Below are positions 43,410 through 49,497 of a stretch of DNA of 64,000 nt, piece after piece. The position numbers and the translations under genes are program-made. Numbering within the stretch: position 1 is the first letter of the stretch; every line of letters starts with the position of its first letter. Source of the DNA: Rhodococcus spelaei (lineage in GTDB: Bacteria > Actinomycetota > Actinomycetes > Mycobacteriales > Mycobacteriaceae); NCBI RefSeq assembly GCF_006704125.1, contig NZ_VIGH01000001.1, positions 248,001-312,000 on the forward strand, given 5' to 3'. The notes beneath the pieces are model-generated. The model saw only the letters and a list, made by a program, of their open reading frames with translations, had not been told where the DNA came from and searched no databases.

Positions 43410-44033
43410 CTAGACGATCAGACCGGCGGTCTGGGTGCGGGCCTTCTCGAAGCGCGCCGCGACGTCGGGCCAGTTCACGATGTTCCAGAAGGCGTTGACG
43501 TAGTCGCCCTTGACGTTCTGGTAGTCGAGGTAGAAGGCGTGCTCCCACATGTCCAGCATGAGCAGCGGGGTCAGGCCGATGGAGATGTTGCCCTGCTGGT
43601 CGTAGAGCTGGACGATGATCAGCCGCTGGCCGATGGAGTCCCACGCCAGGATGGACCAGCCGGAGCCCTGGATGGCGTTGGCGTTCGCGGAGAAGTGGCT
43701 GCGGAAGGCGTCGAAGCTGCCGAACTGGTCGTCGATCGCGGCGGCCAGCTCACCCTCGGGGTTGCCACCACCGTTCGGGCTCAGGTTGTTCCAGAACACG
43801 CTGTGGTTCGTGTGGCCACCGAGGTGGAAGGCCAGGTTCTTCTCGTGCAGGTTGACCACGGGGGCCAGGGCATCGGACGCGCGCAGCTCCGCCAGCTTGT
43901 CGAGGGCGGCGTTGGCGCCGGCCACGTAGGCGGCGTGGTGCTTGTCGTGATGCAGCTCCATGATCTTGCCGGAGATGTGCGGCTCGAGGGCTGCGTAGTC
44001 GTAGGGCAGTTCAGGCAGCGAGTAGACAGACAC
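43410..44033 (-). CDS. sodA: Superoxide dismutase (Fe/Mn type)
   Basis: A 207-aa Fe/Mn superoxide dismutase converting superoxide to peroxide and oxygen. The four metal ligands are present: His in [13 protein letters not shown] (residue about 28), His in [15 protein letters not shown] (about 76), and Asp and His in [11 protein letters not shown] (about 160-164). There is no signal peptide; mycobacterial SodA is nevertheless found outside the cell. It starts with GTG behind AGAAGGGA. M. tuberculosis keeps sodA in the same neighbourhood as gltB and glpQ1. The upstream region carries tandem 33-bp repeats. Confidence 0.96.
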
Positions 44034-46307: not shown

Positions 46308-47237
46308 TCAGCGCAGCTGCGGCATGACCTCGGTGGCCACCAGTTCCAGGTGGTCGAGGTCGTCGAGGTCGAGGGTCTGCAGGTAGATCCGGCTCGATCC
46401 GAGCTCGCGGTAGCGGCCGATCTTGTCGACGAGCTCGGCGGGGGAGCCGGCGGCACCGTTGGCGCGCAGCTCGTCCACCTCGCGGCCGATCCGTGCTGCG
46501 CGGGAGGCGATCTCGGCCTCGGTGCGTCCGCAGCACAGCACCAGCGCGTTCGAGAAGGCCAGCTCGGCGGGGTCGCGGTCGATCGCCGCGCAGGCCGCCT
46601 TGACGCGGTCGAACTGCACCGCGGTGTCCTCGGGCGAGGCGAACGGGAGGTTGAACTCGTCGGCATAGCGGGCGGTCAGTTCGGGGGTGCGCTTCTTGCC
46701 CATGCCGCCGATCACGATCGGCGGACCCGCCTGCTGGTGCGGCTTGGGCAGCGCGGGCGAGTCCAGGATCCGGTGGTGCGCGCCCTCGTACGAGAAGGTC
46801 TCGCCGACAGGCGTCTGCCACATCCCGGTTATCACCGCGAGCGACTCCTCGAGCCGGTCGAAGCGGTCCTTGAGCGAGGGGAACGGGATGCCGTAGGCGA
46901 GGTGCTCCTCCTCGTACCAGCCGGCGCCCAGGCCGAACTCCACGCGGCCGCCGCTCATGGCGTCGACCTGGGCGACGGCGATGGCCAGCGGTCCGGGGTG
47001 GCGGAAGGTCGCGGAGGTGACCAGGGTGCCCAACCGGATGGTCGAGGTCTCGCGGGCGATGCCGGCCAGGGTGATCCAGGCGTCGGTGGGTCCGGGCAGG
47101 CCTGCGCTGTTCATCGCGAGGTAGTGGTCGGACCGGAAGAACGCCCCGTACCCGAGCTGCTCGGCGGTCCGCGCGACGCGCAGCAGCTGCTCGTAGGTGG
47201 CACCCTGCTGCGGTTCGGTGAAGATTCTCAGCTCCAT
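46308..47237 (-). CDS. LLM-class F420-dependent oxidoreductase
   Basis: A 309-aa luciferase-like TIM-barrel protein (MELRIFTEPQQGATYEQLL, AFFRSDHYLAM, RLGTLVTSATFRHPGPLA, GLGAGWYEEEH, PPIVIGGMGKKRTPELTARYADEFN). Sequence style is that of F420-dependent rather than FMN-dependent members; the substrate is unknown. The start is the ATG at 47237. The frame stays open to 47408, but that extension (LSTELSTVSTALST) is only the translation of the DnaA-box cluster and is not counted as protein. Confidence 0.88.
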   Translation of the reverse strand: MELRIFTEPQQGATYEQLLRVARTAEQLGYGAFFRSDHYLAMNSAGLPGPTDAWITLAGIARETSTIRLGTLVTSATFRHPGPLAIAVAQVDAMSGGRVEFGLGAGWYEEEHLAYGIPFPSLKDRFDRLEESLAVITGMWQTPVGETFSYEGAHHRILDSPALPKPHQQAGPPIVIGGMGKKRTPELTARYADEFNLPFASPEDTAVQFDRVKAACAAIDRDPAELAFSNALVLCCGRTEAEIASRAARIGREVDELRANGAAGSPAELVDKIGRYRELGSSRIYLQTLDLDDLDHLELVATEVMPQLR

Positions 47238-47297
47238 GACCGCCAATGGTGCCCTATCGGCGCGCACGCGGCCGACCTCGTAGCGTTGTGCACTATC

Positions 47298-47426
47298 TGT
47301 GGACAACGCTGTGGAAACTGTGGATAACTCGGTGGACAACCTGTGGCCCGCATCACAAATGGGGTGCCTGGACTCGCTCTGGCCTGTGGATAACCCCGAC
47401 ATCGGCATTCCCCAGCCTGTGGAATA
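47298..47426 (+). promoter_or_regulatory. Cluster of DnaA boxes outside oriC
   Basis: Seven same-direction 9-mers related to TGTGG(A/C)(T/C)AA lie in 129 bases. Perfect: TGTGGACAA 47298 and TGTGGATAA 47319 and 47385. One mismatch: GGTGGACAA 47331. Weaker: TGTGGAAAC 47310, TGTGGCCCG 47342, TGTGGAATA 47418. The first five are spaced 9-12 bases apart, about one helical turn. TTGTCCACA is the favoured actinobacterial DnaA box. No dnaA, dnaN or AT-rich unwinding element is nearby, so this is read as a DnaA-binding or titration locus rather than an origin. Confidence 0.65.
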
Positions 47427-47491
47427 CGGGTTGGGGACCGACGGCCGCCACCTTGCTGCCGCTGTGCGGCGAACGTGACAGTATCGAGGGC

Positions 47492-47833
47492 GTGAGCTTC
47501 GGTGACGTGCCGTCGGTACCGGTCGGGGAGGTCCCCGACCTGGACGAGTCGGTGATCCTGTTGGACATTCGCGAGGACGACGAGTGGGAACTCGGGCATG
47601 CGCCCGGGGCCCTGCACATCCGCATGGTCGACGTGCCGGCCCGACTCGACGACATCGACATCGACGCCGAGGTGTACGTGATCTGCCGGTCCGGAGGGCG
47701 GTCGGTCACGGTCGTCGAGTACCTGAACGGGATCGGCTTCGAAGCGGTCATGGTCAGCGGCGGCATGGTGGCCTGGCAGAAGTCGGGCCTGCCGTTGACC
47801 GCCGGCCCGGGCGTCACGGCGAAGATCTACTAG
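47492..47833 (+). CDS. Single-domain rhodanese-like protein
   Basis: A 113-aa rhodanese (sulfurtransferase) domain with ILLDIREDDEWELGHAPGALHIRM and the active-site loop ICRSGGRSVTV (Cys near residue 70). It moves sulfane sulphur or handles thiols; the partner is unknown. The GTG at 47492 is chosen since GAGGG is just upstream and the domain begins soon after; a longer frame to 47246 runs through the DnaA-box cluster and is rejected. Its stop codon abuts the ATG of the next gene (TAGATG), so it heads a small operon with the DUF4328 protein and glpQ. Confidence 0.9.
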   Translation: MSFGDVPSVPVGEVPDLDESVILLDIREDDEWELGHAPGALHIRMVDVPARLDDIDIDAEVYVICRSGGRSVTVVEYLNGIGFEAVMVSGGMVAWQKSGLPLTAGPGVTAKIY

Positions 47834-48745
47834 ATGGCGGCCGTACAGGTGTGTGCCCGATGCGGCGTGAGCTGGCCGGTGCCGGCCACGCCCGCGCAGT
47901 GGTGCCCGGGTTGCCGCGGCGTGCTGCTGTCCCCGACGGATCCGAGCCGACCCGAACCGCGGTCGCGGCGCAACTTCCGCTGGGTCGCGAGGAGACCGGG
48001 CGCGCGGATCGCGCCCTCGCCGCGCGGTGCGTCCGGGTCCTCGCCGACGCCGTCCTACCGGGAGATGCCGCGCTGGGGCCTGCTCGACCCGCCACCCGCC
48101 GCGCCGGAGGAGTCTCCGGGCACCCGCACCGAGCGGCTCGGCGAGCTCGCACCCACCCTGCTGGTCGCGACGGCGCTGCTGTTCGCGGTCGGCGCGCTCG
48201 CGGAGCTGTTCCGGTACGCCCTGCTGCTGCGCAACCGCACCAGCCTGATCTCGCCGACGGTGCTGGCCGTCTCGGACGGGCTGGTCTCGGCGGCCGGGGT
48301 GATGGCCCCGGTGGTCGCCGTCTGCGCCGCCGCCGCGTCCGCGTCCTGGCTGGTGGGGGCGCGCGCGGCCGCCTTCGGCCGGTCGGGCCGGACCGATCCG
48401 CGCCGGCCTGCGGAGGTGATCCTGGGCTGCCTCACCCCGGTACTGAACCTGGTGCTGCCGGGGGTGTACCTCAACGAACTCGCCGAGTCGAATACCAAGA
48501 CGCGCAACCTGATTCGACTCTGGTGGGTGACATGGGCGGTCGGTGCCGCAATGCTGGTGCTGAATCTGGCGTGGCGCTCGCACGACTCCCTGCAGGCGCG
48601 CGCCAACGGGGTACTGGTGGCCGCGCTGACCGACCTGGTCGCGGTGGCCGTCGCCGTTCTCACGCTGGCCGTGATGCGCCGCGTCGACGGTCTCGGCGTC
48701 ACCGGTCGGCCGCGGGAGCTGACCCGGTGGGTGGTCGCCGGGTGA
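47834..48745 (+). CDS. DUF4328 membrane protein with N-terminal zinc ribbon
   Basis: A 303-aa protein. The N-terminus is a zinc ribbon (CARCGVSW and CPGCRG), then a basic Pro-rich linker, then about five membrane spans from residue 105 (TLLVATALLFAVGALAELFRY) with LGCLTPVLNLVLPGVYLNEL and NLIRLWWVTWAVGA, the DUF4328 core. The M. tuberculosis gene next to glpQ1 has the same arrangement. Function unknown. It starts immediately after the rhodanese stop and overlaps glpQ by four bases. Confidence 0.82.
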   Translation: MAAVQVCARCGVSWPVPATPAQWCPGCRGVLLSPTDPSRPEPRSRRNFRWVARRPGARIAPSPRGASGSSPTPSYREMPRWGLLDPPPAAPEESPGTRTERLGELAPTLLVATALLFAVGALAELFRYALLLRNRTSLISPTVLAVSDGLVSAAGVMAPVVAVCAAAASASWLVGARAAAFGRSGRTDPRRPAEVILGCLTPVLNLVLPGVYLNELAESNTKTRNLIRLWWVTWAVGAAMLVLNLAWRSHDSLQARANGVLVAALTDLVAVAVAVLTLAVMRRVDGLGVTGRPRELTRWVVAG

Positions 48746-49497
48746 GCGCCGACGGTCGCGGACCGCTGGTCGTCGCGCACCGCGGTGCGTCGGCCGCGCT
48801 GCCCGAGCACACCCTCGCGGCCTACCAACTGGCCCTCGAGCAGGGCGCCGACGGCCTCGAATGCGACGTCCGCCTCACCCGCGACGGGCACCTGGTGTGC
48901 GTGCACGACCGCACGGTGGACCGCACCTCCTCCGGGTCCGGGGTGGTCAGCGAGATGACGCTGCGGCACCTGAGCGAGCTGGACTTCGGCGGCAACGGTG
49001 AGCCGGTGCTCACGCTCGCCGAGCTGATCACGCTGGTGCTCGACTTCACCGGCCCCACCAAGCTGTTCATCGAGACCAAGCATCCGGTGCGGTACGGCGG
49101 GCTGGTCGAGAGCAAGGTGCTCGCCGAGTTGGCGCGTTTCGGGCTGTCCGCGCCCGCGTCGGCCGACCACTCGCGGGCGGTAGTCATGTCGTTCTCGGCG
49201 ACGGCGGTGTGGCGCATCCGGCGGTCGGCGCCGCTGCTGCCGACGGTGCTGCTCGGCGAGTCGTCCCGGTACCTGGGCGGCAGCGCCGCGACGACGGTCG
49301 GGGCCACCGCGGTCGGGCCGTCGATCAAGACCCTGCGCGAGCATCCCGAACTGGTGGACCGGGCGGCCGCGTCCGGTCGGGCGACGTACTGCTGGACGGT
49401 CGACGAGCGCGCGGACGTCGAGCTGTGCCGCGAACTCGGCGTCGGCTGGATCGCCACCAACCACCCCGGCCGGACCAAGGAATGGCTCGCGGGTTAG
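48742..49497 (+). CDS. glpQ: Glycerophosphodiester phosphodiesterase
   Basis: A 251-aa cytoplasmic GDPD TIM-barrel enzyme. Catalytic motif: VVAHRGASAALPEHT, ECDVRLTRDGHLVCVHDRTVDRTS (Glu/Asp metal ligands and acid-base His), FIETKHP, and YCWTVDERAD near the C-terminus. It splits glycerophosphodiesters, releasing sn-glycerol-3-phosphate from deacylated phospholipids. The GTG start overlaps the stop of the DUF4328 gene as GTGA. It is orthologous in position and type to M. tuberculosis glpQ1. Confidence 0.93.
   Translation: MSADGRGPLVVAHRGASAALPEHTLAAYQLALEQGADGLECDVRLTRDGHLVCVHDRTVDRTSSGSGVVSEMTLRHLSELDFGGNGEPVLTLAELITLVLDFTGPTKLFIETKHPVRYGGLVESKVLAELARFGLSAPASADHSRAVVMSFSATAVWRIRRSAPLLPTVLLGESSRYLGGSAATTVGATAVGPSIKTLREHPELVDRAAASGRATYCWTVDERADVELCRELGVGWIATNHPGRTKEWLAG

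Follow-up and report, generated by a model that had tools for sequence, protein, structure and literature searches.

A conserved cluster of DnaA boxes near the replication origin of Rhodococcus spelaei, a putative counterpart of a mapped mycobacterial DnaA-binding site

The stretch of DNA analysed here (the window; 64 kb, C1:248001-312000) contains an intergenic gap of 254 bp (47238..47491, 63% GC) that lies between two divergent genes and holds a cluster of DnaA boxes (47298..47426). The divergent neighbour encodes an LLM-class oxidoreductase (46308..47237, minus strand; Pfam Bac_luciferase, PF00296) and the first gene downstream of the cluster encodes a protein with a rhodanese domain (47492..47833, plus strand; Pfam Rhodanese, PF00581), so that both neighbours are those named in the preliminary description of this DNA. 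The rhodanese gene is followed, again on the plus strand, by genes for a DUF4328 protein (47834..48745; Pfam PF14219) and for a protein with a GDPD (glpQ1-like) domain (48781..49494; Pfam PF03009). On the other side of the gap, the gene for a Fe/Mn superoxide dismutase, i.e. the counterpart of sodA (43410..44033, minus strand; assigned by Pfam), serves as a marker of the conserved neighbourhood. With further genes interspersed, the order in the window thus reads sodA, msrA, LLM gene, cluster, rhodanese, DUF4328, GDPD, and the gene on the LLM side of the cluster differs among relatives. Many relatives have in common a GTGACAGTATCGA-like sequence just 5' of the rhodanese start (window 47470-47494), from which a leaderless message may be transcribed. 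At a larger scale, the cluster is situated 84 kb downstream of dnaA (C1:209750-211312), after which comes dnaN (both named from sequence).

Seven boxes, all in the same orientation when read on the plus strand, are found within the 129 bases of the cluster. Three of them are perfect, one has a single mismatch and three are weaker, and with respect to this count the sequence and the scoring agree with the preliminary description. Box I (TGTGGACAA, 47298, perfect), box II (TGTGGAAAC, 47310, two mismatches) and box III (TGTGGATAA, 47319, perfect) make up a core triad (47298..47327, plus strand) that represents the conserved 30-bp unit and that is kept in register in relatives. The triad is followed by a fourth box (GGTGGACAA, 47331..47339, one mismatch), which is retained in two loci of the same genus (L040 and L042), and by a weak fifth box (TGTGGCCCG, 47342..47350, three mismatches), which was read by eye and carries low weight, as box scoring was run on every box of the cluster except this one. 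Apart from the triad there are another perfect box (TGTGGATAA, 47385..47393), identified in the sequence and by the scoring, and a weak one (TGTGGAATA, 47418..47426, two mismatches), which was scored as well. The starts of the first five boxes are 12, 9, 12 and 11 bases apart, in keeping with the phasing of 9-12 bases noted before. Within the triad the starts are at 0, 12 and 21, i.e. boxes I and III are separated by two helical turns and box II abuts box III. The triad is a rigid head-to-tail array, which in the window is extended by further same-facing boxes.

A count of box density over the whole genome, proposed earlier as a check on the cluster, shows that perfect boxes are rare elsewhere. 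The perfect sequence TTRTCCACA occurs 30 times genome-wide; the expectation for 64 kb is 0.22 perfect boxes, compared to 3 that were found, and when 30 boxes were placed uniformly (that is, with base composition ignored) three of them came to lie within 96 bp in 3 of 200,000 trials. If one mismatch at most is allowed, the 64-kb window as a whole holds 10 boxes, four of which are in the cluster. The densest 129-bp stretch in 200 windows generated with a first-order Markov model contained one box (174 windows) or two boxes (26 windows), compared to four in the real sequence. The particular box TTATCCACA is present in 8 copies in 4,805,991 bases, all of them within a stretch of 156 kb (C1:209589-365695, 3.2% of the genome) that begins at oriC, and two of the eight are part of the cluster. 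The eighth and last copy stands alone at C1:365687-365695, 154 kb downstream of dnaA. There is one other spot where three perfect boxes occur in about 200 bp (C1:608968-609166); perfect and near-perfect boxes are found there in mixed orientation, some 400 kb from dnaA. Lone pairs of perfect TTGTCCACA boxes were observed on other contigs, at C17:209993-210018 and C11:126661-126687.

The array recurs upstream of many rhodanese orthologs in relatives. Counts that are free of score-selection bias were obtained from a set of 80 named loci anchored on 16 rhodanese orthologs, of which 68 were taken as in-group on the basis of the genus name (Nocardia, Rhodococcus, Prescottella, Aldersonia, Hoyosella, Speluncibacter, Millisia, Williamsia, Gordonia, Mycobacterium and Mycolicibacterium) and 12 as outgroup. 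In 52 of the 68 in-group loci, and in none of the 12 outgroup loci, the 500 bp upstream of the rhodanese gene hold one or more perfect boxes, and a triad with a score of 22 or higher (maximum 27) occurs in the upstream 600 bp of 53/68 and 0/12 loci, respectively. The 68 in-group loci together have 67 perfect boxes in the 500-bp upstream stretch and a single one, which belongs to L188, in the 754,881 bases that remain; the outgroup loci (n = 12) have four, all outside the upstream stretch. The DUF4328 gene is found downstream in 68/68 in-group loci and in only 5/12 outgroup loci, which implies that the outgroup is in part another locus and to that extent a weak control. In a collection of 84 triads (thinned from 101) the box columns carry 1.88 bits on average and the flanks 0.08 bits, a contrast that is inflated because the sequences were picked for their resemblance to the triad. 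The retention of the cluster but not of the spacer in relatives, which had been put forward as a second check, is thereby borne out, where it should be kept in mind that one of the data sets was selected by score.

A broader view of the distribution follows from a scan with the 20-mer CTGTGGAWACTGTGGATAAC, allowing at most two mismatches, which yielded matches in 145 of 201 family genomes and in 25 of 31 genera, versus 3 genomes for the reversed control. Among the 30 loci that were kept, 20 have a rhodanese or DUF4328 gene, 6 have a DnaA match instead and 4 have neither; the number of 145/201 therefore overstates the presence of the rhodanese locus, since some of the matches lie elsewhere, including beside dnaA. 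In one genome (G107) the array is found 1-2 kb from dnaA, and the 20-mer array (at most two mismatches) adjoins a DnaA-coding match in L209 (which derives from G107), L072, L073, L075, L076, L085 and L086. The sequence of G107 and the loci with a DnaA match indicate that some genomes employ the array next to dnaA as well. For genus g29, which we infer to be Mycobacterium because the named mycobacterial loci share the array and the gene order, a variant of the pattern was found in 137 of 148 genomes (control: 1 genome), and of 30 loci examined 28 have a DUF4328 or rhodanese gene and the other two SodA. Taking every pattern match to be the cluster of the rhodanese locus, the distance between match and dnaA in 48 genomes of at most three contigs varies from 34 to 529 kb (median 174.5 kb), with 24 matches on each side of dnaA and 47 of the 48 oriented with the replication fork; the set includes G171 and leaves out G107, where the match is beside dnaA, and genome sizes were rounded to 0.1 Mb. 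Conservation of gene order alone could be enough to account for the proximity to the origin and for the fork orientation.

The cluster has also been lost. It is absent, and the gap shortened, in G002 and G004, i.e. in two of the six genomes of the window's genus (the genome of the window included), and in 15 of the 68 anchored in-group loci the triad remains below threshold (L141, L144, L148, L154, L156-L159, L166-L169, L175, L184 and L186), although some of these retain boxes with an altered spacing. The 20-mer was recovered in 0/15 genomes of genus g4, 4/15 of g3 and 5/14 of g9, some of the matches in g3 and g9 adjoining dnaA, and 6 of the 31 genera have none. The losses within the genus and the sub-threshold in-group loci imply that the element is dispensable and not essential.

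Comparison of the gene order links the cluster to the mycobacteria. In M. tuberculosis we take Rv3843c to be the DUF4328 gene beside glpQ1, Rv3842c to be glpQ1, Rv3841 to be bfrB and Rv3846 to be sodA. The DUF4328 gene of the window would by its place be the counterpart of Rv3843c, as judged from the M. senegalense locus L191, which reads sodA, triad, rhodanese, DUF4328, GDPD, BfrB (SodA and BfrB being assigned by PDB match). The genomes G315 and G288 show sodA, triad, DUF4328, GDPD and BfrB, with no rhodanese match, and SodA adjoins the triad in L191, L212 and L213. An IS6110 end pattern from PMC7738170 matched 28 of 396 g29 genomes, with three copies at most, so that none of them was regarded as that of M. 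tuberculosis; G288 was discarded as a candidate because its SodA departs at many residues from PDB 1gn3, the M. tuberculosis enzyme. The named Mycobacterium and Mycolicibacterium loci among L170-L202 bear the box array at the counterpart place. As judged from the loci of relatives that were compared, the mycobacterial triads differ in that they mostly end in TGTGGATAG and in that many are accompanied by an opposed box 69 bp away. A perfect opposite-facing box at that distance (measured between the starts) from box I of the triad was observed in L191, L196, L197, L199, L200 and L202.

The site Rv3843c-RVnc0040 is among the five strongest DnaA sites of M. tuberculosis as determined in vitro by IDAP-seq, and a homolog of it is present in the in vivo DnaA ChIP-seq data of M. 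smegmatis (PMC7738170; this source and those mentioned hereafter are cited from the parts of their text that were available). With the genes assigned as above, it lies like the cluster upstream of a DUF4328 gene beside a glpQ1-like gene; in the window the rhodanese gene intervenes, and the rhodanese and LLM genes adjoin. In terms of gene order, the cluster thus probably corresponds to a DnaA site that had already been mapped in mycobacteria, and to which the present analysis adds the architecture and the range. The earlier assertion that a locus of this type had not been described for this group was therefore only partly right: a counterpart DnaA-binding site was on record for both M. tuberculosis and M. 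smegmatis (PMC7738170), whereas no earlier description of the 30-bp triad architecture and its range across genera was found in the available text of the literature searched. A function for the Rv3843c-RVnc0040 site was likewise not encountered in the open-licence literature searched, as far as its text was available. With respect to the same region, a Northern-verified small transcript (MTS2975) has been reported between Rv3843c and Rv3844 in M. tuberculosis (PMC3207917), and the gene Rv3843c is listed, beside dnaA, among the candidates for raised isoniazid resistance (PMC8613195), where the available text makes no mention of the DnaA site. When four loci (L037, L191, L196 and L133) were searched with cmscan, only L133 had matches, two in number, with a sub-gathering score and off the site; a structured RNA was set aside, as there was no match at the site in these four loci.

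For the other four mycobacterial DnaA sites, this genome likewise has clusters of boxes, namely between rpmH and dnaA, between dnaA and dnaN, in the gap between the genes for a bPH_6 protein and CrgA, and upstream of dnaB. The cluster between the bPH_6 gene and crgA (C1:234317-234382) matches the M. tuberculosis Rv0010c-Rv0011c site in place. The cluster upstream of dnaB (L207 4288-4461; dnaB at C1:96228-98780) consists of five boxes with a single mismatch each and matches the mycobacterial dnaB-upstream site. The dnaB match (C1:96228-98780) comprises about 850 codons versus the 435 positions of the profile, which suggests that dnaB contains an insertion, for instance an intein. Judging from this set of clusters, the layout with five sites that is known from mycobacteria may be shared by another genus.

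Of 120 loci, a number that includes redundant ones, 116 have the triad and the downstream gene co-oriented, the triad being inverted with respect to the rhodanese gene in L077, L078, L079 and the Gordonia paraffinivorans locus L174. The distance between the two ranges from 43 to 466 bp (96 loci), and from 62 to 174 bp within L128-L167 alone, where the values are approximate because gene starts were extrapolated from tblastn and the pooled locus sets share genomes; the distances cover all helical phases, with 1-18 loci per bin (no formal test). A triad that is rigid inside and loose towards the gene looks like a self-contained DnaA platform, and the widely varying distance and the four inverted triads fit a stand-alone DnaA-binding element better than a promoter operator. 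The idea that DnaA acts here as a transcription factor on the rhodanese-DUF4328-GDPD genes or on the divergent gene, and thereby couples them to the cell cycle, agrees with the place of the cluster upstream of the same downstream genes throughout the family, with the prevailing co-orientation, and with what is known from other bacteria, where DnaA serves as a transcription factor (PMC7738170). Nevertheless, we consider it rather unlikely in view of the variation in distance and phase, the inversions, the retention of the triad where the rhodanese gene is absent, and the fact that the expression of Rv0010c and Rv0011c, the genes that flank the sister site in M. tuberculosis, is unaltered in dnaA mutants (PMC7738170). 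Since other family genomes have the array next to dnaA, the cluster could be taken for a second origin (cryptic or ancestral) or for a part of oriC that has been displaced. In contrast to oriC, which has an AT-rich unwinding element or a DnaA-trio, the cluster has neither: the lowest 20-bp window in the gap has 40% GC versus 25% in the dnaA-dnaN gap, in line with the earlier remark that an AT-rich unwinding region is lacking, and no DnaA-trio was found at the cluster with the crude pattern that was used. Moreover, dnaA and dnaN are 84 kb away and the minimum of the cumulative GC-skew over the 272 kb examined, where the skew is weak, is at C1:233393, 22 kb from dnaA. A second origin was rejected on account of the missing unwinding stretch and the position of the skew minimum elsewhere, weak as it is, and we hold it to be very improbable. 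It is hardly credible that the boxes are without function and owe their presence to chance or to hitch-hiking with the gene order: the cluster is indeed lost in some relatives, but the boxes are retained and the flanks are not across many genera, the null models do not produce such a density, and binding of DnaA has been reported at the counterpart.

A further alternative concerns the nucleotide state of DnaA. The IHF consensus, taken as WATCARNNNNTTR, has no match on either strand in 47101-47600. The cluster shares with datA of E. coli that it is non-coding, near oriC and composed of parallel boxes, which are the essential ones in datA (PMC5742627); it differs in that datA needs an IHF site between its boxes. 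As in DARS1 and DARS2 of E. coli, its core consists of three boxes whose spacing is fixed; the DARS box I is opposed to boxes II and III (PMC5742627), whereas the boxes of the cluster are all parallel. Functionally, datA promotes the hydrolysis of DnaA-ATP, its loss leading to untimely initiation, and DARS brings about the release of ADP from DnaA; the cluster was compared with both at the level of the sequence. A site where a DnaA oligomer swaps ADP for ATP (DARS-like) or hydrolyses ATP (DDAH-like) would be consistent with the rigid internal spacing, which resembles that of a defined oligomer, with the occurrence of parallel essential boxes in datA (PMC5742627), and with the fact that titration and nucleotide exchange have both been raised for non-oriC DnaA sites (PMC7738170). 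Given a gap without IHF consensus and boxes that are all parallel, unlike those of the DARS core, we regard such a site as unlikely. For the features tested, the lack of the IHF consensus means that the cluster is not a homolog of datA, and the box polarity that it is not one of DARS, although it may resemble datA in logic. From the earlier label of a datA/DARS-like locus there remains a probable origin-near DnaA site that is not a second origin, whereas a literal kinship with datA or DARS is not supported. Box clusters of a comparable nature are known from S. coelicolor, which belongs to another bacterial order, and from B. subtilis. Those of the actinobacterium S. coelicolor (Smulczyk-Krawczyszyn 2006) repress untimely initiation and those of B. 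subtilis (Okumura 2012) are oriC-proximal and several per chromosome, and both are considered analogous to datA (PMC5742627). In the present genome box clusters are found around oriC, for which the corresponding effect would be a lower frequency of initiation.

We favour, with slightly better than even confidence, a stand-alone DnaA-binding element, vertically inherited in this family and close to the origin, that is the counterpart of the mycobacterial site and for which titration is the most likely mechanism. The parallel and nearly abutting boxes would serve as the nucleation site of a short oligomer of DnaA along one face of the DNA. Replication reaches the locus soon after initiation, and the second copy thus formed might pull DnaA off the new origins and so damp re-initiation, in which the sites at crgA, dnaB and rpmH-dnaA might act jointly with the cluster. 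The claim of titration has to be tempered because M. tuberculosis mutants of the Rv0010c-Rv0011c site have longer cells but initiate at an unchanged rate (PMC7738170). In a variant of the mechanism the oligomer would alter the nucleotide state of DnaA.

The wider relevance of the cluster lies in the regulation of replication in this group. To our knowledge, the control of DnaA in mycobacteria and their relatives is poorly understood. A site for which the literature found gives a binding peak alone now gains a 30-bp architecture, a range of genera and evidence for its independence from the neighbouring genes, and the exact bases of the triad are given for testing. At a higher level, we tentatively propose, at somewhat less than even confidence, that the 30-bp triad is a family-wide, origin-proximal switch of initiation timing that works without IHF and that is made up of the array that some relatives carry beside dnaA. 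If this is true, the mycobacteria and their relatives would own a system of the datA/DARS type that is based on several fixed sites around oriC.
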